From Defluviitaleaceae bacterium (lineage in GTDB: Bacteria > Bacillota > Clostridia > Lachnospirales > WQUN01), in NCBI GenBank assembly GCA_009786925.1, contig WRGY01000117.1, forward strand, positions 1 to 36,515: 36,515 nucleotides of DNA, written 5' to 3'. Below are positions 1,566 to 33,750 of the stretch, one piece after another (within the stretch, counting starts at the first letter, position 1; every line of letters begins with the position of its first letter). The position numbers were made by a program, and so were the translations under genes. The notes below the pieces were generated by a model. It worked only from the letters and a program-made list of their open reading frames with translations. It made no database searches and had not been told where the DNA came from.

Positions 1566-1610
1566 AAAACAAGCAAGGCAGGATGATTTTCGACCTGCCT
1601 TGCTTGTTTT
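1566..1610. terminator. Bidirectional intrinsic terminator, 17-bp perfect stem
   Basis: AAAACAAGCAAGGCAGG (1566-1582) pairs perfectly with 1594-1610 around an 11-nt loop. The A-run on one side and T-run on the other allow termination in both directions. It lies exactly between the TnpV-like gene (plus) and the convergent Rpn-family gene (minus), touching the latter's stop codon. Confidence 0.9.
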
Positions 1611-2473
1611 CAAAGTGATTCTATTTCCTCTTGGGTCAATCCTGTAGCTTTTATGATTGTATCCATCGGCATGTTCATATTGATGAGGTTGCGCGCAATA
1701 TCCATACGTTCACCCATGCGCCCTTCATTACGCCCTTCGTTACGTGCCCCACCCATCAATGACACCCAATCTCTCCGCGCCTTTTCACGTTCCTCGTAAA
1801 GCATACGGGTACGTTCGTCGGCAGACAACTCCTTCAGAAAACCAACAGCTTTTTTCATTTGCGGTTTGCGTTCAGCTATCATGTCTAAAACCTCCCCATC
1901 GTTCGATTTGATAAATTTCATCCAATACCATAAATCAGTGTTTTCCGTTGTTTCTGGCAACTTGGATAATTCAAGGGTATTTATTTCCTTTAAGTCTGTA
2001 AATTCCACGCCGTATTTTGTGCGGTAGCGAAATTGGTGATGGTAGTCGTCATCTTCTTTGATTAGGTCATGGTTTGTGATTATTATACTGACTACTCGCT
2101 TAATTGTTTTCCAATTCTCGCCAGAGGACATTTGCTCTGTTATCATTTTAGATTGCTGATAAATAGAGCGTTCCTTTAGTTCAGGGAGTGGCCACAGTTG
2201 AATCTCAATATGGATAATATTTTTGCTCTTTGTGTGAAGTTTTACGTCAAGTACACTATACTTATCATCTGTTGCTTCCTTTTTCACGTAAGGGTCGATA
2301 ATAGTTATTGTATCATATTCTTCATCGGGTATATTAAGCACAGACTTTAAGAAATCCGCAAGTATATCCACATTACGTTGGTCTCCAAATATCAACTTAA
2401 AAATAAAATCTGATGTAACAGGAAGCAACAAAATTTTGTTATTCAATTCAGTAATATCGCTCAAATTATTCAA
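1610..2473 (-). CDS. Rpn-family PD-(D/E)XK nuclease / putative transposase
   Basis: This 287-residue protein belongs to the Rpn (recombination-promoting nuclease, PDDEXK_2) family. It opens with the family block LPVTSDFIFKLIFGD, followed by the nuclease core with D76 in SVLDVKLH and E90-x-Q92 in IIHIEIQ (D-Xn-ExQ variant). The middle has the usual 'ERSIYQQSKM...Q' region, and the C-terminus has the low-complexity NEGRNEGR stretch and a short helical tail ending in GLTQEEIESL. Rpn proteins cleave DNA and raise recombination frequency; many genomes carry many copies. The start is TTG (complement 2471-2473), chosen because AAGGGGA sits 6-7 nt upstream; a TATACT -10 is at 2490-2495. The length is normal, so it is probably intact. 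Confidence 0.88.
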   Translation of the reverse strand: MNNLSDITELNNKILLLPVTSDFIFKLIFGDQRNVDILADFLKSVLNIPDEEYDTITIIDPYVKKEATDDKYSVLDVKLHTKSKNIIHIEIQLWPLPELKERSIYQQSKMITEQMSSGENWKTIKRVVSIIITNHDLIKEDDDYHHQFRYRTKYGVEFTDLKEINTLELSKLPETTENTDLWYWMKFIKSNDGEVLDMIAERKPQMKKAVGFLKELSADERTRMLYEEREKARRDWVSLMGGARNEGRNEGRMGERMDIARNLINMNMPMDTIIKATGLTQEEIESL

Positions 2474-2525
2474 TCCCCTTCATATGGATAGTATACCACG
2501 GATTTATGGATTTTCTACAATAAAA

Positions 2526-3677
2526 TCAAACTTTTGCTTGTGTCGTGGCAGTCTTGCTTCGGCTTTTTCGTACCCGCCCCTGCTCCAACCAAGCCTCAAA
2601 CTCATCAAACCCCAAATTACCTGCAAGGCACTCATCCCTTTTTCGTCCTGCTTCATCAGACCAAGCTAAAAAGTCCTCTTGTGTCATCTTCTTATTGCGG
2701 GTGCGCGAATTAAGTCTGCGATACGCTTTTTTATAAACATCCCAAACAGGATTTTCAGCGACTTTCTTCTCGTATCGCAACATTGCGCCAATTTCATTAC
2801 AACGGCGTTCTGTATCAGCAAAAATACGATTGCAATACTCAGCATCCACCCGTCGCATGGGGATAAAAAAGCGTTCGCAATTCTTACATTTCTTAATATA
2901 AATATCATGCTCAATCATTTTTATAAACTCGAAGCGAAATAAATCCTCGACACCATTTATTTCATATAATTGTTGAACTTCCTGTGTAGCTGTGCGCCCG
3001 TAAAATGTGCGAAACGACCTTTCAAGATAGTAATAATGCCCACCAAACTTGTGCATATGGTATTCGTCCAAAATATCAATATAATCAATAGAGCGTCCAT
3101 CAGGCACTTTAATTTCCTTACGGTAATGAAGTAGAATCTCTAAGTCATGGATAATAAATTTTTGAAACTTGCATAAATGGTCATGCAAAACGGCAATGGC
3201 ATCCTTGACGGCTCGAAAAAGCCGTTTTTCTTTGTCTAAAAAATAGGCTACATCCACGTAAGTGGAATTGGATTTAGGCCACTCGAAATTTAATGCCCAA
3301 CTTAACTTAGCCTCCGCATTGGGTATTTGCCTTTCAAGCGCAACTATAGCCTGTTTGGGTGATTCAATAAAGGCATAGATAAAATCTAAGAGGGTCTGAC
3401 CATACAAATAAACATATTGCTCATGCTGTTGTAATTCACTCATAGATTCTTTCAATGCGGCGATAAATTCAGGTTGCTTTGCGGCGACATGAGCGTGTTC
3501 GCTGTCAAAGGCTTCTGCTATTGCAGAAAAAGCGTCAAGAAACATATCAGGTTCATAACACACAAAATTAAGAAGCGGTTTTCCTAGCTCGTAGGCTATG
3601 CCCCCGATGTTGGAAAAACTGCTTTTTTCGTTGTAAAAATGGATGTTTCCGTCCTTTATATAGACACTTGCGACCAT
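2526..3677 (-). CDS. DUF6076 domain-containing protein
   Basis: This 383-residue protein has a helical, aromatic-rich body and a Cys-rich C-terminal module: KKCKNCERFF, then AEYCNR, then RRCNEIG (about residues 260-300), arranged as a likely zinc ribbon. This architecture is that of DUF6076 proteins of clostridial mobile elements, whose function is not known. The start is set at ATG 3675-3677 because AGGGGTG lies 6 nt upstream. An ATG 39 nt further upstream has no ribosome site. The tail is basic (RVRKSRSKTATTQAKV), which would suit nucleic-acid binding, but that is inference. It is transcribed from a good promoter and may share the transcript with the Rpn gene 52 nt downstream. Confidence 0.72.
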   Translation of the reverse strand: MVASVYIKDGNIHFYNEKSSFSNIGGIAYELGKPLLNFVCYEPDMFLDAFSAIAEAFDSEHAHVAAKQPEFIAALKESMSELQQHEQYVYLYGQTLLDFIYAFIESPKQAIVALERQIPNAEAKLSWALNFEWPKSNSTYVDVAYFLDKEKRLFRAVKDAIAVLHDHLCKFQKFIIHDLEILLHYRKEIKVPDGRSIDYIDILDEYHMHKFGGHYYYLERSFRTFYGRTATQEVQQLYEINGVEDLFRFEFIKMIEHDIYIKKCKNCERFFIPMRRVDAEYCNRIFADTERRCNEIGAMLRYEKKVAENPVWDVYKKAYRRLNSRTRNKKMTQEDFLAWSDEAGRKRDECLAGNLGFDEFEAWLEQGRVRKSRSKTATTQAKV

Positions 3678-3745
3678 TTTGTTCACCCCTGTTAAGCGAA
3701 AATAAGTATATACCATTTAGGCGAATATCTATCAGTATTGCTATT

Positions 3746-3774
3746 ATTGTACTTTAGCCTTGATTTTATGTCAA
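3746..3774 (-). promoter_or_regulatory. Sigma-A-type promoter of the DUF6076 gene
   Basis: On the minus strand TTGACA (3769-3774) is followed after exactly 17 bp by TACAAT (3746-3751). The predicted start site lies about 60 nt upstream of the chosen ATG. Confidence 0.8.
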
Positions 3775-3777
3775 GTA

Positions 3778-4008
3778 TATACGATAATTATTTTAGCGAC
3801 AATGATATAGATTTTGTATTATTGCCGTCAACTGAATAGCCGCACATGCGGCACATGTTCACATCGCCCGGGCCAATCGGGAGGCGATTCAGAAAGTATC
3901 CCGACACTAAATCTGTGGCTTTGGCATCCGCAGACCGCAAGTGGCGTTGCGGCAAGTCAAAATTAATCACAGAAACATCAAAATTATTTTATGAAGGGAG
4001 TCGGTGGT
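3778..4008. other. Divergent spacer between DUF6076 and tnpW
   Basis: The stretch 3840-3960 is more GC-rich than its surroundings. It is open on both strands but has no start with a convincing ribosome site. A minus-strand frame contains a CRMCGY Cys pair followed by GNNTKS, which might be a relic, but no family was recognised. No strong hairpin or repeat was seen. Confidence 0.4.
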
Positions 4009-4194
4009 ATGAATACGAAAAAAATCCAACGTGAAAAGGTAAATTCGCCGCTGGAACCGTACCGTTTTACGAAACGCATCGGCTCCACGGTTTTCAAAGT
4101 CAATGTTAGCTTCAAGCAAGACGCAAAAGAAACAATGGACGAAAAAATTATGCGTCTTATGCGTAATGATGTGCAATTAGGAAAGGTGGTCTGA
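4009..4194 (+). CDS. TnpW-like transposon-encoded protein
   Basis: This 61-residue protein has the TnpW pattern: a short basic leader, then YRFTKRIGSTVFKVNVSF, then KETMDEKIMRLMRNDV. The family consensus is 'F.RTIGRTTY.V..HFS...ET..DKI.RLI.NE'. The start at ATG 4009 is preferred over ATG 3991 because AAGGGAG lies about 10 nt upstream of it. TnpW accompanies TnpX-family serine recombinases in Firmicutes integrative elements, and its biochemical role is not established. The gene is 136 nt upstream of the recombinase in the same direction and is probably co-expressed. Confidence 0.75.
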   Translation: MNTKKIQREKVNSPLEPYRFTKRIGSTVFKVNVSFKQDAKETMDEKIMRLMRNDVQLGKVV

Positions 4195-4196
4195 TT

Positions 4197-4334
4197 GTGA
4201 AATTGAATATGGATTGGGAATGGCGAGAAATCGCCGTTCCCACAAATTTTGCAAAACTTCTGCAAATGCAGTCCGTTTGTGGTAAAATGAAATTGCCACA
4301 AGCGGAAACGCTGCCGGAAAGGGGTTCATTATGA
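4197..4334 (+). CDS. Possible small protein (45 aa) overlapping recombinase start
   Basis: GTG 4197 (2 nt after the TnpW stop, with GAAAGGTGG upstream) opens a 45-codon frame ending in TGA 4332-4334, overlapping the recombinase ATG 4331 as ATGA. The spacing at both ends suggests translational coupling from TnpW to the recombinase. The peptide is not recognised and part of it overlaps the palindromic promoter region 4273-4306. It could be a coupling leader rather than a functional protein. Confidence 0.35.
   Translation: MKLNMDWEWREIAVPTNFAKLLQMQSVCGKMKLPQAETLPERGSL
4273..4306 (+). promoter_or_regulatory. Palindromic promoter/operator before the serine recombinase
   Basis: CCGTTTGTGG (from 4273) and CCACAAGCGG (to 4305) form an imperfect inverted repeat around TAAAATGAAATTG, where TGTGGTAAAAT has an extended -10 shape. 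The right arm contains an exact inverted copy of the 14-mer at 1123-1136. A site read by a repressor or by the recombinase itself would fit, but this is inferred. Confidence 0.5.
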
Positions 4335-6262
4335 ACAACAATATCTGGCAACCGCTCTGCGACAAGAGTATTACAACGCAGTATGACATTTTATATTGCA
4401 GGCTCTCCCGCGATGACGGGTTAGACGATAAGGAGAGCGATTCCATATCCCACCAACGAGAAATCCTAGCCGATTACGCAGCAAAGAATGGTTTTGACCA
4501 TCCGATTTGTGTGGTGGACGATGGATTCACAGGCACGAATTTCCAAAGACCCGGTTGGCAACTCGTTTTACAAGAGATTGAAAACGGCAACGTCCGTTCG
4601 ATAATCTGTAAGAATAAAGACCGTTTCGGCAGGGATTACTTGCGCGTCGGCTTATATAGGGAGATGTTCAAGGAATCGAACATTCGTTTCGTTGCAATAG
4701 GTGATGGCGTAGACAATATCCGTGACGATGACGATTTTGCGCCGTTCCGCGATATTATCGCTGAATTTTTTGCAAGAGATACAAGCAGAAAAATTAAGGC
4801 AGTTTTGCATAACAAAGGGCGAAGTGGAAAGCCACTAACCAACCAAGCAATCTATGGCTACCGTAAAGACCCAAACGACCGCAACAAATGGCTTGTAGAC
4901 GAAACAGCCGCCCCGATTGTTAAGCGAATCTTTCATATGACAATCGAAGGAAAAGGGCCGTTTCAGATTGCACGGACATTTTGTGACGAGAAGATTATAC
5001 GCCCATCATGCCATGTTGCACGGTTAAGTGGTTGCGTCACCGCAAAATCTGAACAAAGCCCATACGGTTGGACGGATGCAACGATTACGCAGATTATCCG
5101 TCGCCCTGAATATATGGGTCACGTCGTCAATTTCAGAACCTACAAGACCTCTTTTAAGACGAAAAAATACAAGCTGAACCCGCCCGAAAAATGGGAAATC
5201 TTCGAGAACGTACATGAAGCGATTATTTCCCCCGGTGAATGGGAAACAGCGCAAAAATGCCGAACAGTTATACGCCGTAAAAACAAGAGTGGAGAAGTTA
5301 ATCCGCTAACAGGACTTGTTTACTGCGGCACATGTGGAAGTCGTATGTACAATCATCGTGGTACACGCTACAGCGAAACCCGCCCATCACAAAATAGCTA
5401 CTGTTGCACCAAGTACAGCAAATATCCGCCAGAGTGTACTCGTCATAATATCTCTGTGAAGTCCCTGCGGGAACTTGTACTAGATGCAATAAAAAATGTT
5501 AGTAGCTATGCAAGTGAGCATGAAGCGGAGTTTGTTGAAAAACTTCGTGAGGATGCACAAATAAAACAAGACGAGCAAGCAAAATCCCAAAAGAAACAGC
5601 TTTTTGCGGACAAACGCCGTGTTGCAGAACTCGATAAGCTAATACAGCAAATTTATGAGGACAAGGTTTCAAAATCCTTGTCGGAAAAGCGATTTGCAGT
5701 ATTATCGGCGCAATATGAATCTGAGCAAGAATCTGTTGAGGCTCGCATAGCCGAAATAGAAAAGGAGCTTGCGCAATTCACAGAAGATGGGGCTAAAGCT
5801 GATAAATTTATTGCACTTGTCCGTAAATACACCACTTTTGAGGAACTCACAAACGCCATGCTAACGGAGTTTGTGGACAAAATAGTGGTGCATGAAGCAG
5901 AACGACAGCGAGGGCAACGCAATCAGAAAGTAGACATCTACCTAAGTTTTATCGGGCAGTTTACCCCGCCGGGTTGTGAGCAGGTATTCCCCGAATACCA
6001 ATCGCCGCAGGACAAGCGCAGGGAGTATCATCGGGAATATTACCAACGCAATAAAGAAGCAATCTCTGCCAAAACCACGAAGCGTTATTATGCGAAAAAA
6101 TCAGAACGCCCCGACCCTCCTGTAAAATCGGCAGAAGAACTTGCCGCAGAGGAAGAATTGCGGGTTGAACGCCGCAAGGCGTATCAACGTGAGTATCAGC
6201 GCGAATGGCGAAAAAAACAGCAAGCTAAAAATCTCCATCTTGAACAGGTGGCGCAAGCGTAA
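4331..6262 (+). CDS. Large serine recombinase, TnpX type
   Basis: This is a 643-residue site-specific recombinase that would excise and integrate the surrounding element through a Ser-DNA intermediate. It has a resolvase catalytic domain (about 15-160) with nucleophile S26 in YCRLSRDD, SISHQRE, the DDGFTGTN.QRPG block and KDRFGRD (R98). A recombinase domain follows (about 170-310, with AIYGYRKD and IIRRPEYMGH). A zinc ribbon has C332 and C335 (YCGTCG) and later Cys near 358 and 369. A coiled coil (about 390-490) and a DUF4368-like segment (FVDKIVVHEAE) come next. The C-terminus is unusual: about 100 residues rich in Tyr, Arg and Glu (repeated REYYQRNKE, YQREYQREWRKK), likely basic helices. 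The length is in the range of TnpX (about 700). It appears intact. Confidence 0.92.
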   Translation: MNNNIWQPLCDKSITTQYDILYCRLSRDDGLDDKESDSISHQREILADYAAKNGFDHPICVVDDGFTGTNFQRPGWQLVLQEIENGNVRSIICKNKDRFGRDYLRVGLYREMFKESNIRFVAIGDGVDNIRDDDDFAPFRDIIAEFFARDTSRKIKAVLHNKGRSGKPLTNQAIYGYRKDPNDRNKWLVDETAAPIVKRIFHMTIEGKGPFQIARTFCDEKIIRPSCHVARLSGCVTAKSEQSPYGWTDATITQIIRRPEYMGHVVNFRTYKTSFKTKKYKLNPPEKWEIFENVHEAIISPGEWETAQKCRTVIRRKNKSGEVNPLTGLVYCGTCGSRMYNHRGTRYSETRPSQNSYCCTKYSKYPPECTRHNISVKSLRELVLDAIKNVSSYASEHEAEFVEKLREDAQIKQDEQAKSQKKQLFADKRRVAELDKLIQQIYEDKVSKSLSEKRFAVLSAQYESEQESVEARIAEIEKELAQFTEDGAKADKFIALVRKYTTFEELTNAMLTEFVDKIVVHEAERQRGQRNQKVDIYLSFIGQFTPPGCEQVFPEYQSPQDKRREYHREYYQRNKEAISAKTTKRYYAKKSERPDPPVKSAEELAAEEELRVERRKAYQREYQREWRKKQQAKNLHLEQVAQA

Positions 6263-27695: not shown

Positions 27696-29048
27696 GTGAC
27701 CTTGGATTTTCGTTATAAGTTAACAGCGCGGAATGACTTGCTTTCTGATGGAGGGCGGCGACCGCGTTTTTTTATCAGGACATATGGTTGTCAGATGAAT
27801 GAACGCGACTCAGAAAAGATGGCAGGGTTGCTTGTGCAGATGGGTTTTGTGGCGGCTCAATCGCAGGACATCGCCGATGTGGTGTTGTATAACACCTGCT
27901 GTGTGCGCGAAAGTGCCGAAGATAAGGTGCTGGGACATTTGAGTGTCTTGCGCAGACAAAAAACAGAGCGGCAGTTTGTGTTAGCAGTGGGCGGTTGTAT
28001 GCCACAGCAAAAAAACATGGAGCAGTTGCTGTGGGACAAGCATAAATATGTGGATTTGATTTTTGGGACAGGCAACAGGCATAGATTGCCCGAGTTTTTG
28101 TGGCGGGTGATAGAAGGTGGCGAGCGTGTCTGCGATATTAGCGAGGGTGACGAGTTGCCGGAAATCGGGGATATAGATGTCGCCTCTCGTGAGTATGCAT
28201 TTAAGGCCGGTGTAAATATAATGTATGGTTGCGACAATTTTTGCTCGTATTGTATAGTGCCGCATGTTCGTGGCCGTGAGCGCAGTCGTTCTGTGAAAGA
28301 TATATTAGAAGAAATACGTGTTTTGGCAAACGACGGAGTAAAGGAAATCATGCTGTTGGGGCAGAATGTAAATTCCTATGCGGGAGAAGTTAATTTTTCG
28401 GAGCTATTAAAACTCGTGCATGATGTCGAAGGGATTAAGCGTATAAGGTTTATGACTTCGCATCCAAAGGATTTTTCTGATGAACTAATCGCGGCTATGC
28501 GTGATTTGCCCAAGGTATGCAAGTCGGTACATCTGCCGCTACAGGCTGGGAGTACGCGAGTGCTTGCCGATATGAATCGCATGTACACAAAGGATGAGTA
28601 TATCGCGCTGGTGATGAGGCTAAAAGAGGCTGTGCCGAATGTGGCGATTAGCACCGATATTATCGTAGCGTATCCCGGCGAAACAGATGACGACTTTGAG
28701 GATACGCTTGATGTGGTGCGCCGCGTGAGGTTTTCCGGCGCGTTTACATTTATATATTCCAAAAGGAGTGGTACACCTGCCGCCGAGCGGACGGATTTGG
28801 TGTCCCGCAAGGTAGCGAATGAGCGGTTTGACAGGCTCACAGCCGAACTTTATCCCATCATGACAGAGATAAACGAAGCAAAAATCGGCAAAGTGTTTGA
28901 TGTGATGGTGGAAGAAAACGGGCGGGGACGTATGGACGACCATACCTTAGTGCATTTTATCGCAACGCAGAGTATGACCGCAGGAGAAATAATCCCGGTG
29001 CGTATCGACGAGGCAAAGACGTTTTATGTAACCGGGGTGAGCGTATGA
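27696..29048 (+). CDS. miaB: tRNA-2-methylthio-N6-dimethylallyladenosine synthase
   Basis: About 450 residues. It adds a methylthio group to i6A37 of tRNAs reading UNN codons. The N-terminal UPF0004 domain has the three cluster Cys in YGCQMN, TCCVRES and VGGCMPQ. The radical-SAM core has C-x3-C-x2-C in YGCDNFCSYCIVPHVRGRE (about residues 178-186). A C-terminal TRAM domain closes the protein (DVMVEENGRGRMDDHT, then GEIIPVRI). The start is uncertain: GTG 27696 is chosen because GGGGAG lies 5 nt upstream; GTG 27675 in the same frame has a weaker site. It ends overlapping the next gene by 4 nt. Confidence 0.95.
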   Translation: MTLDFRYKLTARNDLLSDGGRRPRFFIRTYGCQMNERDSEKMAGLLVQMGFVAAQSQDIADVVLYNTCCVRESAEDKVLGHLSVLRRQKTERQFVLAVGGCMPQQKNMEQLLWDKHKYVDLIFGTGNRHRLPEFLWRVIEGGERVCDISEGDELPEIGDIDVASREYAFKAGVNIMYGCDNFCSYCIVPHVRGRERSRSVKDILEEIRVLANDGVKEIMLLGQNVNSYAGEVNFSELLKLVHDVEGIKRIRFMTSHPKDFSDELIAAMRDLPKVCKSVHLPLQAGSTRVLADMNRMYTKDEYIALVMRLKEAVPNVAISTDIIVAYPGETDDDFEDTLDVVRRVRFSGAFTFIYSKRSGTPAAERTDLVSRKVANERFDRLTAELYPIMTEINEAKIGKVFDVMVEENGRGRMDDHTLVHFIATQSMTAGEIIPVRIDEAKTFYVTGVSV

Positions 29049-29536
29049 AAATAAGAAAATCCATCCTTGCAGACCTTGAGCAGATAGAAGCAATCTACGA
29101 AGGCGCACGCGCATTCATGCGGGATAGCGGCAACCCGTCACAGTGGAAAAACAATCACCCCCCACAAGAAATTGTCGAGGCAGATATAAAAAACGGCGAT
29201 AGCTACGTATGTGTCAGCGACGACGGAGAAATTTTGGCCGTGTTTTTTTTCACAACAAAACCCGACCCTACTTATACAGAAATCAACGGCGCGTGGCTAA
29301 ATAATAAGCCCTATGGTGTCATCCACAGAATCGCCCGCAAAAGCACCCCTGCCGCAAAGGGCGCGGGCAGGTTTTGTATAGAATGGTGCTTCCGCCAAAT
29401 ACAAAACCTACGCATAGACACCCATGAGGACAATGCTCCCATGCTTGTTATGTTAAACCGCTTGGGCTTCGTCCGTTGTGGTATAATCAAGCTGGAAAAC
29501 GGCGAAGACCGTGTTGCACTGCAAAAGATATTTTAA
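29045..29536 (+). CDS. GNAT-family N-acetyltransferase
   Basis: 163 residues. It has the GNAT fold: MKIRKSILADLEQIEAIYEG at the start, RAFMRDSG..QW, EILAVFFFTTKPDPTYTEI, then the acetyl-CoA-binding helix region (IHRIARKS....KGAGRFCIEW), LRIDTHEDNAPMLVMLNRLG and FVRCGIIKLENG at the end. The acceptor is unknown. RNSGNP-type variants of this kind are widespread in Clostridia. Overlaps miaB by 4 nt. Confidence 0.88.
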   Translation: MKIRKSILADLEQIEAIYEGARAFMRDSGNPSQWKNNHPPQEIVEADIKNGDSYVCVSDDGEILAVFFFTTKPDPTYTEINGAWLNNKPYGVIHRIARKSTPAAKGAGRFCIEWCFRQIQNLRIDTHEDNAPMLVMLNRLGFVRCGIIKLENGEDRVALQKIF

Positions 29537-29571
29537 TATAATCAAATATCTTCCAAAAAGGAGTAAATATC

Positions 29572-30288
29572 ATGGTTGTACTAAACACCCAATACAATCT
29601 AATGTATCCTCGCTTGTCGGACATAAGACGAAGGATAGTTGCATACGAAGACGCACTAAAAGGCGAGTTTTTACAGTATCAAATACTCCCGATACCGGAC
29701 GATGCACCCCCGGAAATACCAAGAGTGACTATTACCACAAAGCATGGGCATTCAATGTTACAACTGTCGTTATCAGGGGCAGTTTTCCAGACGGCATATG
29801 ATGATGCGTACAACAAGAGCTGGGAAAAATGTCACGATTACCTTGAAAAAAGGATGGAACAAATTTATGACATTGTTAAACATATATCCCCTGAAAGGAT
29901 TTATACACAGGGGATTACTGCGCAAATAATAGTTAATATACCTGATACAAACCCCGTGGAGTTTTTAACTAAAGGCGTTCCCATTATAGACAAGAATCAA
30001 GATATATGGGATTTTGGATGCTACGCAACTGTAATAAGTCAAAATAAGTATTTTGCTACAGTCCAGATTTCAAATGCAAGGATTGCACATATCCCACTTT
30101 CTGCGGAAAACTATGAGCATAAAAATTATTTGCTTTTTAATATTGAAGCAAACGACAGAAAGATGTTTAACCAAGACAGTAATAACGATTCTGGAAAAGA
30201 GACCACAAAAGACTTGCTTTCATTGATGAAAGAAATAGTTACTGTAAGGATAGATGCATTCATAAGTGGGGGAGTGTTCAAATTATGA
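29572..30288 (+). CDS. Uncharacterised protein, first gene of the protease cassette
   Basis: A 238-residue soluble protein with no signal peptide or membrane helix. I do not recognise its family with certainty. The pattern of alternating strands and a long helix (KHGHSMLQLSLSG, then YNKSWEKCHDYLEKRMEQIY) followed by an IYTQGITAQII strand and a late FNIEAND.. strand recalls the TIGR04255/SecB-like fold, but this is only a resemblance. AAAGGAG precedes ATG 29572, 35 nt after the GNAT gene. Its last 4 nt overlap the next gene, so the two are likely translated together. The DNA is AT-richer than miaB or mutS, suggesting acquisition. Confidence 0.7.
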   Translation: MVVLNTQYNLMYPRLSDIRRRIVAYEDALKGEFLQYQILPIPDDAPPEIPRVTITTKHGHSMLQLSLSGAVFQTAYDDAYNKSWEKCHDYLEKRMEQIYDIVKHISPERIYTQGITAQIIVNIPDTNPVEFLTKGVPIIDKNQDIWDFGCYATVISQNKYFATVQISNARIAHIPLSAENYEHKNYLLFNIEANDRKMFNQDSNNDSGKETTKDLLSLMKEIVTVRIDAFISGGVFKL

Positions 30289-30611
30289 ATATGTTAGGCA
30301 AGCCTATACCTGATTTGTTTGTGCAGTCTTTGCCACGTTTTGTACAATCTCGGAATACTCAATATTGCTATCCAAGTATGTTTTCTGAAATAGATTTGGA
30401 ACATATAACAATTGACGCGATTTCTGCTGCCGAAAAATATCCGCATCACTATTCACTTATTGCTGTTGATGGCAAAGATGAATATGGCACAAGCTATGGT
30501 AGGCTTTTATTCTGCAAGAGTTCACTTGCAGAAATAGATTGGCTTGTGCTTATACATGGAGGGTTTGAAGATGAATCTCTCTGTTATGTAACCGGTGCAG
30601 AATGCCAATAA
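30285..30611 (+). CDS. Uncharacterised protein, second gene of the protease cassette
   Basis: A 108-residue protein with no recognised domain. It has FVQSLPRFVQSRNTQYCYPS, then a helix (IDAISAAEKYPHHYSLIAVD), and a C-terminal strand-rich part (YGRLLFCKSSLAEIDWLVLI). It is soluble and slightly acidic. ATG 30285 overlaps the preceding stop as ATGA, with GGGGGAG upstream. The tight coupling on the left and 12-nt gap on the right make it part of a three-gene unit. Confidence 0.65.
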   Translation: MNMLGKPIPDLFVQSLPRFVQSRNTQYCYPSMFSEIDLEHITIDAISAAEKYPHHYSLIAVDGKDEYGTSYGRLLFCKSSLAEIDWLVLIHGGFEDESLCYVTGAECQ

Positions 30612-30623
30612 GGAGTTTGCGCC

Positions 30624-31178
30624 ATGAATAAGCTAAAGGTCGTGCCTAACAAACTTGACGATAAAATCCGTGTGCAGATATATCATGTGAAAGAAAACAA
30701 AGCAAAAGAAATGACGGCGATTATTGATACAGGTGCGTACAACAGCTATCTTGGCGATAATGCTCTAAAACGGATAGGATACGAAATAAATATTGACAAA
30801 GTAAATAAACATAAAGACAGATTAATCCCTATGCAGGGAATAACCGGCGAAAATCATATCTATCCTCGAAAGTGTCCGGATATTTCAGAAAAAATATATG
30901 CTTCTTTGCCGATTAAACTATCAAATTTATATTTTAGCACAACAATAGTTGTTGACTCGCCTACAATACATTTGCCTGTGTCGTTTCATGTGCAAAAAAA
31001 TGATGTGTTTGTAGATATATCATTTGAGCAGCGAGACATTGTATTAATTGGCATGGATATTTTGAGAGATTTTAATTTTGGTGTAGATATTGAGCAACTC
31101 CCCTTTTTTAGTATTTCTCGTCCCGCTAGTCTTGTGACACCACGAAACAAACCAATAATGCAAATAAAATTCATTTAA
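30624..31178 (+). CDS. Retropepsin-like aspartic protease
   Basis: 184 residues. It has the two hallmarks of a retropepsin-type monomer that works as a dimer: catalytic D35 in AIIDTGAYN (DTGA), and the later hydrophobic-Gly block VLIGMDILRDFNFGVD (about 140-155), which is the LIGxDxL motif. A glycine-containing loop between them (MQGITGENHIYP) would be the flap. No signal peptide or membrane helix, so it should be cytoplasmic. AAGGAG precedes ATG. The substrates are unknown; the two upstream unknown proteins are obvious candidates for substrate or partner. Followed by mutS after 13 nt. Confidence 0.72.
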   Translation: MNKLKVVPNKLDDKIRVQIYHVKENKAKEMTAIIDTGAYNSYLGDNALKRIGYEINIDKVNKHKDRLIPMQGITGENHIYPRKCPDISEKIYASLPIKLSNLYFSTTIVVDSPTIHLPVSFHVQKNDVFVDISFEQRDIVLIGMDILRDFNFGVDIEQLPFFSISRPASLVTPRNKPIMQIKFI

Positions 31179-31191
31179 AGAGGAATCCCCC

Positions 31192-33750
31192 ATGCCAAAA
31201 CTCACCCCAATGATGGAGCAATATTTCGCAATAAAGGCCAATCACAAGGATGCGATATTGATGTTCCGACTGGGGGATTTTTTTGAGATTTTTTTTGACG
31301 ATGCAAAGATTGCGGCCAAGGAGCTGGACATAGCTCTTACAGGTCGTGACTGTGGGCAAGAAGAGCGCGCTCCCATGTGCGGAGTACCTGCCCACGCGGT
31401 AGATGGCTATATCGCAAAGCTTATCGAAAAAGGGTATCGTGTGGCACTTGCCGACCAGGTAGAGGATGCAAAACAGGCAAAAGGTATAGTAAAACGTGAT
31501 GTGGTGCGTGTTATCACCCCGGGTACGGTGACGGATGCTAATTTGTTGGAAGAAGGCCGACACAACTATATCACTGCAATACATAGCAGCAAGGACGGAT
31601 TTGCATTATCATCGGCGGATATTACTACGGGGCTTTTTATGGCTACCTTTATCGAAAAAAACGAAAATAAACTATTGGACGAACTCACTCGCATATCCCC
31701 CGCCGAGGTTGTCCTGCCCGAAAATTTTAGCCTGACCCGCATTATCGAAAATGTCACAGGCATAAAGGCTACAATCGCTCCTGCCTATACCTTCCATCCC
31801 ACAAATGCATATAAATTGCTCGTAGACCACTTTGGCACACTGCATCTGGAGGGCTTTGGCGTATATGACAACGCACCGGAAATCCCTGCCGCGGGCGCGC
31901 TTTTGGCATATCTTGCGGATACACAAAAGCAAGCACTTCTGCAAATCACGCGCCTAAAAACCTACACACAGCAACAGCATATGATTTTGGACAGCTCATC
32001 TCGGCGAAATTTGGAACTTACATCCTCTGCCCGCCACGGCAAAAAAGGCTCGCTCCTTTGGGTGCTTGACCATACAAAAACAGCTATGGGCGCACGCCTT
32101 TTGCGTAATTACATAGACCTTCCGCTTATTAACAGGGAAGAAATAACGCGCCGTCTCGACGCAGTATCCGAGTGGAAGGCTCTGCCAATGGAACGTGCCG
32201 AATTGCGTGAGTATCTCCACGAAATCAATGACCTGGAGCGTGTGATGTCGCGCCTCGCTTCGCGCTACGGCTCTGCACGCGACCTGGCTACGCTACGCGC
32301 AAGCTTACAGCTTTTGCCATCCGTCGAACGTCTGCTGACAAATACAAAAAGCGCGGCAAACTGCGAAATCCGTCGTACATTTGATGCATTGCCCGACATC
32401 TACGAAAAAATAGAGCGGATGATTACCGAAGCCCCTCCCGCTACCGTCCGTGAGGGTGGCATGATTAGGCCGGGCATCAATGCAGAGTTGGATAGCCTGC
32501 GCGATATAAAACAAAACGCCCAAGCCTACATCGCGGACCTCGAAGCCCGCGAAAAAGAACAAACAGGCATAACAAGCCTAAAAATCCGATACAACCGAGT
32601 GTTTGGATATTATATAGAAGTGACGGCTACAAATCTTTCTAAAGTACCCGACCACTACATCCGCCGCCAGACTTTGGCAAACTGCGAGCGTTTTGTGACT
32701 GAGGAGCTAAAAAAGCTCGAAGAAACCTTGTTAAACGCAGACGAAAAAATCGTAACCATCGAGTTTGATTTGTACGACGCACTTAGGCGCGAAATCGTAG
32801 AAGAGATGGTGCGAGTACAATTTGCGGCGGTCACGATTGCTACATTAGACGCATTACAATCACTTGCAGAAGCCGCCGAACGCAATAACTACACAAAGCC
32901 GCATATCACAAACGATTCTCACATAACAATAAAAGGAGGCCGCCACCCCGTAGTAGAAAAACTGACCTCTCACGCCTTTGTGCCAAACTGCACACAAATG
33001 AGCGGCACAGACCATCTCGCCATCATCACAGGCCCGAACATGGCGGGCAAATCTACTTACATGCGCCAAGTCGCCCTCATCGTGCTAATGTCACAAGTAG
33101 GCTCATATGTGCCTGCCGAATCCGCAGAAATTTCTGTATCCGACCGTATATTTACTCGCGTGGGTGCCTCCGACGACCTCGCCACGGGGCAAAGCACCTT
33201 TATGGTGGAGATGACAGAAGTCGCAAATATTTTGAACAATGCGACAAACAAAAGCCTCGTTATTCTTGACGAAATAGGTCGCGGCACAAGCACCTTTGAC
33301 GGTCTTGCAATCGCATGGGCAGTCCTTGAGCATATAGCAAAAAAAATAAGCTCGAAAACACTCTTCGCCACACATTATCACGAACTCACACAGCTCGAAG
33401 GACAACTCGCGGGGGTAAAAAACTACTGTTTTACTGCGCAGGAGACTGACGACGGCGACATCGTATTCTTGCGAAAGCTAATCCACGGCGAAGCCGGCCA
33501 AAGCTACGGAATCCACGTAGCTCGCCTCGCAGGCCTCCCCCCGGAAGTCATCAGCCAAGCCGACGACCTCTTAGAGGATTTTAATACAACGGGAATAACA
33601 AAAAAATCCGCTTCACTCCCCTCACCCAAGCCAAAACCACTCTCAAAAAGAGAGCAAGCCCTGACTCTCGCACTCACAGAAATCGTAATAGACGACATCA
33701 CCCCAAGGCAGGCCATGGATATACTGGCACGGTTAAAGGAAATCCTGTGA
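31192..33750 (+). CDS. mutS: DNA mismatch repair protein MutS
   Basis: 852 residues, full length. The mismatch-reading domain has F30-F31-E32 (LGDFFEIFFDDA, the Phe-x-Glu that wedges at mispairs) and TGRDCGQEERAPMCGVPAHA. The connector, lever and clamp domains follow (TSSARHGKKGSLLWVLDHTK, then NRVFGYYIEVT). The ATPase domain has Walker A TGPNMAGKSTYMRQ (about residue 613), SEISVSDRIFTRVGASDD, STFMVEM and LDEIGRGTSTFDGLAIAWA with an HYHEL following. A C-terminal HTH/dimerisation part ends the protein. It is separated from mutL, usually adjacent, which is not in the window. The 3' end overlaps the convergent thioesterase by 18 nt. Confidence 0.97.
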   Translation: MPKLTPMMEQYFAIKANHKDAILMFRLGDFFEIFFDDAKIAAKELDIALTGRDCGQEERAPMCGVPAHAVDGYIAKLIEKGYRVALADQVEDAKQAKGIVKRDVVRVITPGTVTDANLLEEGRHNYITAIHSSKDGFALSSADITTGLFMATFIEKNENKLLDELTRISPAEVVLPENFSLTRIIENVTGIKATIAPAYTFHPTNAYKLLVDHFGTLHLEGFGVYDNAPEIPAAGALLAYLADTQKQALLQITRLKTYTQQQHMILDSSSRRNLELTSSARHGKKGSLLWVLDHTKTAMGARLLRNYIDLPLINREEITRRLDAVSEWKALPMERAELREYLHEINDLERVMSRLASRYGSARDLATLRASLQLLPSVERLLTNTKSAANCEIRRTFDALPDIYEKIERMITEAPPATVREGGMIRPGINAELDSLRDIKQNAQAYIADLEAREKEQTGITSLKIRYNRVFGYYIEVTATNLSKVPDHYIRRQTLANCERFVTEELKKLEETLLNADEKIVTIEFDLYDALRREIVEEMVRVQFAAVTIATLDALQSLAEAAERNNYTKPHITNDSHITIKGGRHPVVEKLTSHAFVPNCTQMSGTDHLAIITGPNMAGKSTYMRQVALIVLMSQVGSYVPAESAEISVSDRIFTRVGASDDLATGQSTFMVEMTEVANILNNATNKSLVILDEIGRGTSTFDGLAIAWAVLEHIAKKISSKTLFATHYHELTQLEGQLAGVKNYCFTAQETDDGDIVFLRKLIHGEAGQSYGIHVARLAGLPPEVISQADDLLEDFNTTGITKKSASLPSPKPKPLSKREQALTLALTEIVIDDITPRQAMDILARLKEIL

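Follow-up and report, generated by a model that had tools for sequence, protein, structure and literature searches.

Retropepsins are already known from bacteria, among them APRc (RC1339), PerP and SpoIIGA (PMC4140852). The pairing of a small protein with a retropepsin also exists already, as the PADLOC candidate PDC-M08, in which a protein of about 86 aa (A) is followed by a single-lobed DTG protease of 128 aa (B); no paper on PDC-M08 was found in the literature searched. TBP-like domains occur as fusions with HEPN RNases that belong to the RNase LS family of defence proteins, and in RNase HIII such a domain binds RNA-DNA hybrids (PMC3710099). Phage-resistance genes are known on ColE1 plasmids of Enterobacteriaceae (PMC5864857).

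A cassette of three genes in a 36,515-nt stretch (the window) of the 2.28-Mb draft genome of a termite-gut bacterium is a good candidate for an immune or toxin module of a kind new to bacteria. Gene 1 (29572..30288, forward strand, as are all features given here) encodes P1, of 238 aa; gene 2 (30285..30611) encodes P2, a small partner of 108 aa; and gene 3 (30624..31178) encodes P3, a putative single-lobed retropepsin-like aspartic protease of 184 aa. Genes 1 and 2 join in an ATGA overlap, 12 nt separate genes 2 and 3, and plausible Shine-Dalgarno sites precede all three ORFs. The three intact ORFs lie exactly at the coordinates given in the initial annotation, which had described them as tightly coupled and had placed them between the GNAT gene and mutS. 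The flanking GNAT gene (29045..29536) and mutS (31192..33750) are outside the cassette. Within the window, no further defence gene was found near the cassette. The cassette is made of two units that exist apart, gene 1 on the one hand and genes 2 and 3 on the other.

The trio recurs in G003, a congeneric sister species, at another chromosomal place with a histidine kinase/response regulator on one side and an ABC transporter on the other. All three genes are intact there, their order and the ATGA overlap are kept, and the second gap is 6 nt; identity to the window proteins is 38% for P1, 40% for P2 and 35% for P3. Such intact recurrence indicates more than chance, and the preserved order and overlap bear out the joint unit first proposed from the coupling. 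Recurrence in other genomes had been set as the test of that unit and was found, though in just two species: among 96 relatives the only real matches are the window genome and G003, and the retropepsin-bearing trio is known only from these two, both drafts. A retropepsin match in another genome (G060, E 5e-4) proved spurious, as it falls in an ABC-transporter ATPase.

Assignment of P3 to the retropepsins is supported by motifs and profiles, in line with the original reading of this protein. The catalytic motif D35-T-G-A (30726..30737) and the second hallmark, LIGMDIL (31044..31064), are both present, separated by a long insert; the G003 protein keeps DTG and has LIGTDIL as its second motif. 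P3 thus has the two motifs of clan AA, D-[TS]-G plus hydrophobic-hydrophobic-G in one lobe, and a profile relationship to known members. P3 matches Pfam PF13975 (gag-asp_proteas) at E 2.5e-4, under the curated cut-off, and PADLOC PDC-M08B at E 5.1e-7 in a partial match mostly over the DTG region. Two independently built bacterial retropepsin profiles score it at 28.1 and 26.9 bits, against 5.3 and 4.0 bits for the best of 200 shuffled sequences; the corresponding values for G003 P3 are 21.1 and 14.0 bits, against 8.2 and 2.8. Comparison by hhalign relates P3 to bacterial retropepsins at 94-97%. An AlphaFold model built from two sequences has a pLDDT of 40.6, too low to confirm a retropepsin fold. 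Retropepsins with one DTG per chain are active as homodimers, and with its single DTG P3 should be so as well. No strongly hydrophobic segment appears in its hydropathy profile, so P3 is predicted to be soluble.

P2 is likely to be homologous to the small proteins that accompany other retropepsins. Its central motif, KYPHHYSLI..DEYG..YGRLL, lies in the same place as the motif of partners of about 80 aa. In an alignment, KYPxxY and a following G are common to the small proteins of the type found in G006, a second genome of the window's genus whose mutS is 89% identical in its N-terminal part. Scores against a profile of small partners are weak, at 6.8 bits for the window P2 and 7.4 bits for that of G003, with the best of 200 shuffles at 3.1 and 5.4 bits, respectively. 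The P2 proteins of both trios have an additional N-terminal segment of about 40 aa that is missing from stand-alone partners. At 33 of 37 retropepsin loci, a small ORF of 76-139 aa (mostly 76-97) is coupled to the protease, a count in which a few may be due to chance given that any ORF of 60-150 aa was allowed. The end of the small ORF falls anywhere from 3 nt short of the protease start to 61 nt beyond it, usually with overlap, and the Shine-Dalgarno site of the protease is often inside the last codons of the small gene. Genes 2 and 3 thus resemble a single translationally coupled pair that is widespread, which the initial annotation overlooked. A recurrent IGG near the C terminus of the small partners was considered as a functional tail and rejected; it is the in-frame Shine-Dalgarno sequence (ATAGGAGG), a trap for motif searches.

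The view that retropepsins are uncommon in bacteria does not hold for these lineages. In this family, 16 of 38 genomes encode retropepsins that match the G006 protease, with up to 11 matches per genome, and PDC-M08B matches occur in 24 of 299 Bacillota genomes. Five genomes (G022, G030, G016, G005 and G006) have 6 to 11 retropepsin matches of the small-partner type, several of them clustered on one contig, and this multiplication in some genomes of the family is a lineage-specific expansion.

The cassette is foreign, was acquired horizontally and sits in a slot whose content is exchanged. G+C is 37.5% in gene 1, 37.9% in gene 2 and 34.2% in gene 3, whereas it is 48.2% in miaB, 47.4% in the GNAT gene and 49.3% in mutS; the earlier remark that the cassette is richer in AT than miaB and mutS is thus confirmed, at 34-38% against 47-50% G+C. 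In G006 a protein 80% identical to that of the GNAT gene is encoded in the same place. When the window is compared with G006 by blastn, only 28566-29545 (75%) and 31189-32178 (80%) align, so that homology ends just past the GNAT stop (29545), resumes three bases 5' of mutS (31189) and leaves an exchanged segment (29546..31188) that has no DNA homology between the two. The gap in G006 holds another pair (locus L037), a gene of 82 aa that overlaps a retropepsin gene of 164 aa. With only 21% identity between the window and G006 retropepsins, this is replacement rather than divergence in place. Relatives of the G006 retropepsin with 49-53% identity are found in three other genomes, two of which belong to other genera, as expected for mobile cargo. 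No such genes lie directly 5' of mutS in seven other genomes of the genus that have mutS. Deviant composition and replacement at the same site together support the acquired module suggested at the outset. About 23 kb from the cassette, the window also contains a mobile-element remnant (1610-6262), consisting of an AT-rich gene for a PDDEXK_2 transposase-type nuclease, a DUF6076 protein gene and a large serine recombinase gene.

Gene 1 is an orphan family on the evidence of profile searches, with phrog_22817 as its sole match among the databases searched. P1 matches this profile over its full length (residues 4-238, E 1.1e-25) and has no relative in Pfam, NCBIfam, PADLOC or PDB. The best-conserved stretch in family alignments (LPIPDDAPPEIPRV, 29686..29727) contains IPxPDDAPPEIPR in P1 and reads PDxxPPEIPR across relatives. 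An AlphaFold model of P1 from five sequences (pLDDT 79.6) has the topology b-a-b-b-b-b-a, which then repeats in a less complete form. The best coherent group of Foldseek matches to this model is TATA-binding proteins (E about 2e-4, TM 0.33-0.45). Viral matches include giant-virus proteins, some of them annotated as TFIID or early transcription factors, and the best viral match is an unnamed protein of 202 aa (TM 0.56/0.64). The model suggests, with moderate confidence, that P1 approximates a duplicated TBP-like fold of two tandem halves. Resemblance to SecB or TIGR04255 was considered for P1 and set aside, because there is no NCBIfam match and Foldseek points to TBP-like proteins.

Relatives of gene 1 are sparse. 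They occur in 7 of 398 genomes from the phylum, including the window genome and one match with a broken frame (G392), and in 4 of 295 genomes in the order, including the window genome, G003 and one marginal match (G038); the broken-frame and marginal matches were set aside. They nearly always head short coupled downstream genes, often with overlap, and these partners form several unrelated sets. In four loci (Leptospira phage LE1, Bacillaceae UBA7792, G200 and G641) the partners are a gene of 99-115 aa and a QGDI/NTCD protein of 189-216 aa. In three others (G176, G454 and G218) they are a gene of 168-197 aa, whose reading frame is less certain in G218, and a protein of 146-171 aa that looks HEPN-like from its motifs as read by eye, with no HEPN match in Pfam. 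On ColE1-like plasmids of Enterobacterales the partner is a single gene for a transmembrane protein, to judge from a strongly hydrophobic segment; 27 plasmid records contain a gene-1 relative, and the second gene was inspected in several. A lone gene of 108 aa is the partner in G146. The first reading missed that gene 1 forms a family of its own, which travels with other partners too. On several plasmids of about 3 kb, from E. coli, Salmonella and Klebsiella, the gene-1 relative and its hydrophobic partner are a main cargo and are annotated only as hypothetical. The cassette of the Klebsiella plasmid gave no DNA match in RefSeq E. coli chromosomes and plasmids ('distant' mode).

The neighbours of gene-1 relatives are suggestive of an association with defence genes or mobile elements. 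For example, the relative in G176 adjoins a Dsr1-like SIR2 protein (E 1e-43), that in G454 is near the Pycsar cyclase PycC (E 1e-118) and an FRG gene, and that of the Leptospira element is near an NsnB/AriA-like ATPase (E 2.6e-52). By reading of the surrounding genes, apparent prophage lysis genes adjoin the relative in G200, and a relaxase gene is near that in G641. The gene-1 protein of phage LE1 (KF114877.1) is 28% identical to P1, and scans of viral contigs with genes 1 and 3 found only this Leptospira element. The link to defence proposed in the initial annotation thus gains from the company kept by gene-1 relatives and from the match of P3 to candidate PDC-M08B.

The preferred reading is a three-gene conflict module, anti-phage or toxin-antitoxin-like, with roughly a sensor or coupler, a small protein and a protease as its parts. 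This reading has about an even chance of being correct, and each individual role has less. Gene 1 would be the sensor or coupler and the small-protein/retropepsin pair the effector arm. P3, the effector, would be active only as a homodimer, and P2, made together with it, would keep the protease inactive as an inhibitor, or may be its chaperone or substrate. P1 may sense a signal linked to infection, possibly nucleic acid by analogy with RNase HIII and its TBP-like domain, and would then release or localise the protease upon infection. The freed retropepsin would cleave host or phage proteins, and infection would be stopped.

Alternatively, genes 2 and 3 may be a complete stand-alone PDC-M08-like pair, with gene 1 an independent fellow traveller. 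Most such pairs lack gene 1, and a pair of this form fills the slot in G006. However, the ATGA overlap of genes 1 and 2 is shared by both species although the chromosomal location differs, short and often overlapping genes directly follow nearly all gene-1 relatives elsewhere, and the extra N-terminal segment of P2 is found in both trios and is absent from stand-alone partners, all of which makes independence of the two units unlikely. The cassette could also serve selfish maintenance or superinfection exclusion by mobile elements, with no anti-phage benefit to the host, as might be expected from gene-1 relatives on ColE1-like plasmids, in a Leptospira phage and near the relaxase gene of G641. 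Selfish maintenance is difficult to reconcile with the chromosomal copies that neighbour Dsr1 and Pycsar genes, and also with the window cassette, which is flanked by housekeeping genes and adjoins no mobile-element gene; this explanation is quite unlikely.

A regulatory protease module like PerP or SpoIIGA, which cleaves a host regulator on a cellular cue and takes part in no conflict, has a similarly small chance. Patchy distribution (2 of 96 relatives, the window genome and G003), foreign composition and exchange of the cassette are ill-suited to a conserved host regulator, and relatives of gene 1 reside on phages and plasmids. The described bacterial proteins of this type are nevertheless developmental or surface-processing enzymes (PMC4140852), which lends the regulatory module some precedent. 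Loss of protease function in P3, which would then serve as a binding protein, would be in keeping with its divergence, evident in the Pfam match under the curated cut-off, and with the long insert between its hallmark motifs. This idea is very improbable, as both species preserve DTG and L-I-G-x-D-I-L at an overall identity of 35%.

The conflict module favoured here shares parts with several known systems. Like PDC-M08, it has a small protein and then a single-lobed DTG protease, and the G006 pair matches both parts of PDC-M08 weakly. The window P3 differs in its greater length, its match to B is partial and mainly over the DTG region, and nothing upstream of it matches A; P2 has no PADLOC match in the window or in G003, and no PADLOC model matches gene 1. 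P3 is like the retropepsins of MEROPS A2 type (RC1339/APRc, PerP, SpoIIGA) in its single DTG and LIGMDIL, but is unlike APRc and SpoIIGA in being predicted soluble and unlike all three in its coupling to a small partner and gene 1. Gene 1 matches phrog_22817 along its length, whereas genes 2 and 3 of the LE1 cassette differ from those of the window and include no retropepsin. As in RnlA of RNase LS, in which a TBP-like element is combined with HEPN, distant gene-1 cassettes may join a TBP-like element with a HEPN-type effector; in these cassettes, however, the two are separate proteins, no sequence relation was found, and the window effector would be a protease. Toxin-antitoxin-chaperone (SecB-like) modules also have three short coupled genes, but P1 has no SecB match in Pfam or NCBIfam, and no SecB is among the Foldseek matches listed for P1. 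No description of the gene-1 family, of its changing partners or of its combination with a retropepsin pair was found in the literature searched; the cassette, putatively of a sensor-effector or toxin-antitoxin kind, is therefore a member of no named system on these comparisons.

More tentatively, gene 1 may found a modular immune class in which a duplicated TBP-like sensor has recruited unrelated effectors, namely a retropepsin, a HEPN-type RNase, a QGDI/NTCD protein and a membrane protein; this is somewhat less probable than not. If so, the window version uses an aspartic protease of HIV type as its effector, and single-lobed aspartic proteases join the effectors of bacterial immune or toxin systems. 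An orphan family on Enterobacteriaceae plasmids would gain a function that is directly testable in E. coli, and the abundance of coupled small-protein/retropepsin pairs in some gut bacteria would be explained. The trio also offers a concrete route toward testing PDC-M08.

The Leptospira phage and its partner proteins have further features. In LE1 the gene-1 cassette is directly 5' of a set of genes for His-Xaa-Ser radical-SAM peptide maturation (hxsA, D, B, C), and this stretch, which has the NsnB/AriA-like ATPase upstream, has the appearance of a cargo region. Membership of the trio in a His-Xaa-Ser radical-SAM system was considered and rejected, as LE1 lacks the retropepsin and the other loci read have no hxs genes; in the window genome, radical-SAM matches are below cut-off only. 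The QGDI/NTCD protein forms a conserved family with no Pfam match in the members tested (loci L014, L022, L023 and L103). The C terminus of its upstream partner (LFP.IRDFT.EE..Y) resembles the N terminus of the QGDI/NTCD protein itself (LFPSI.PYTKE).
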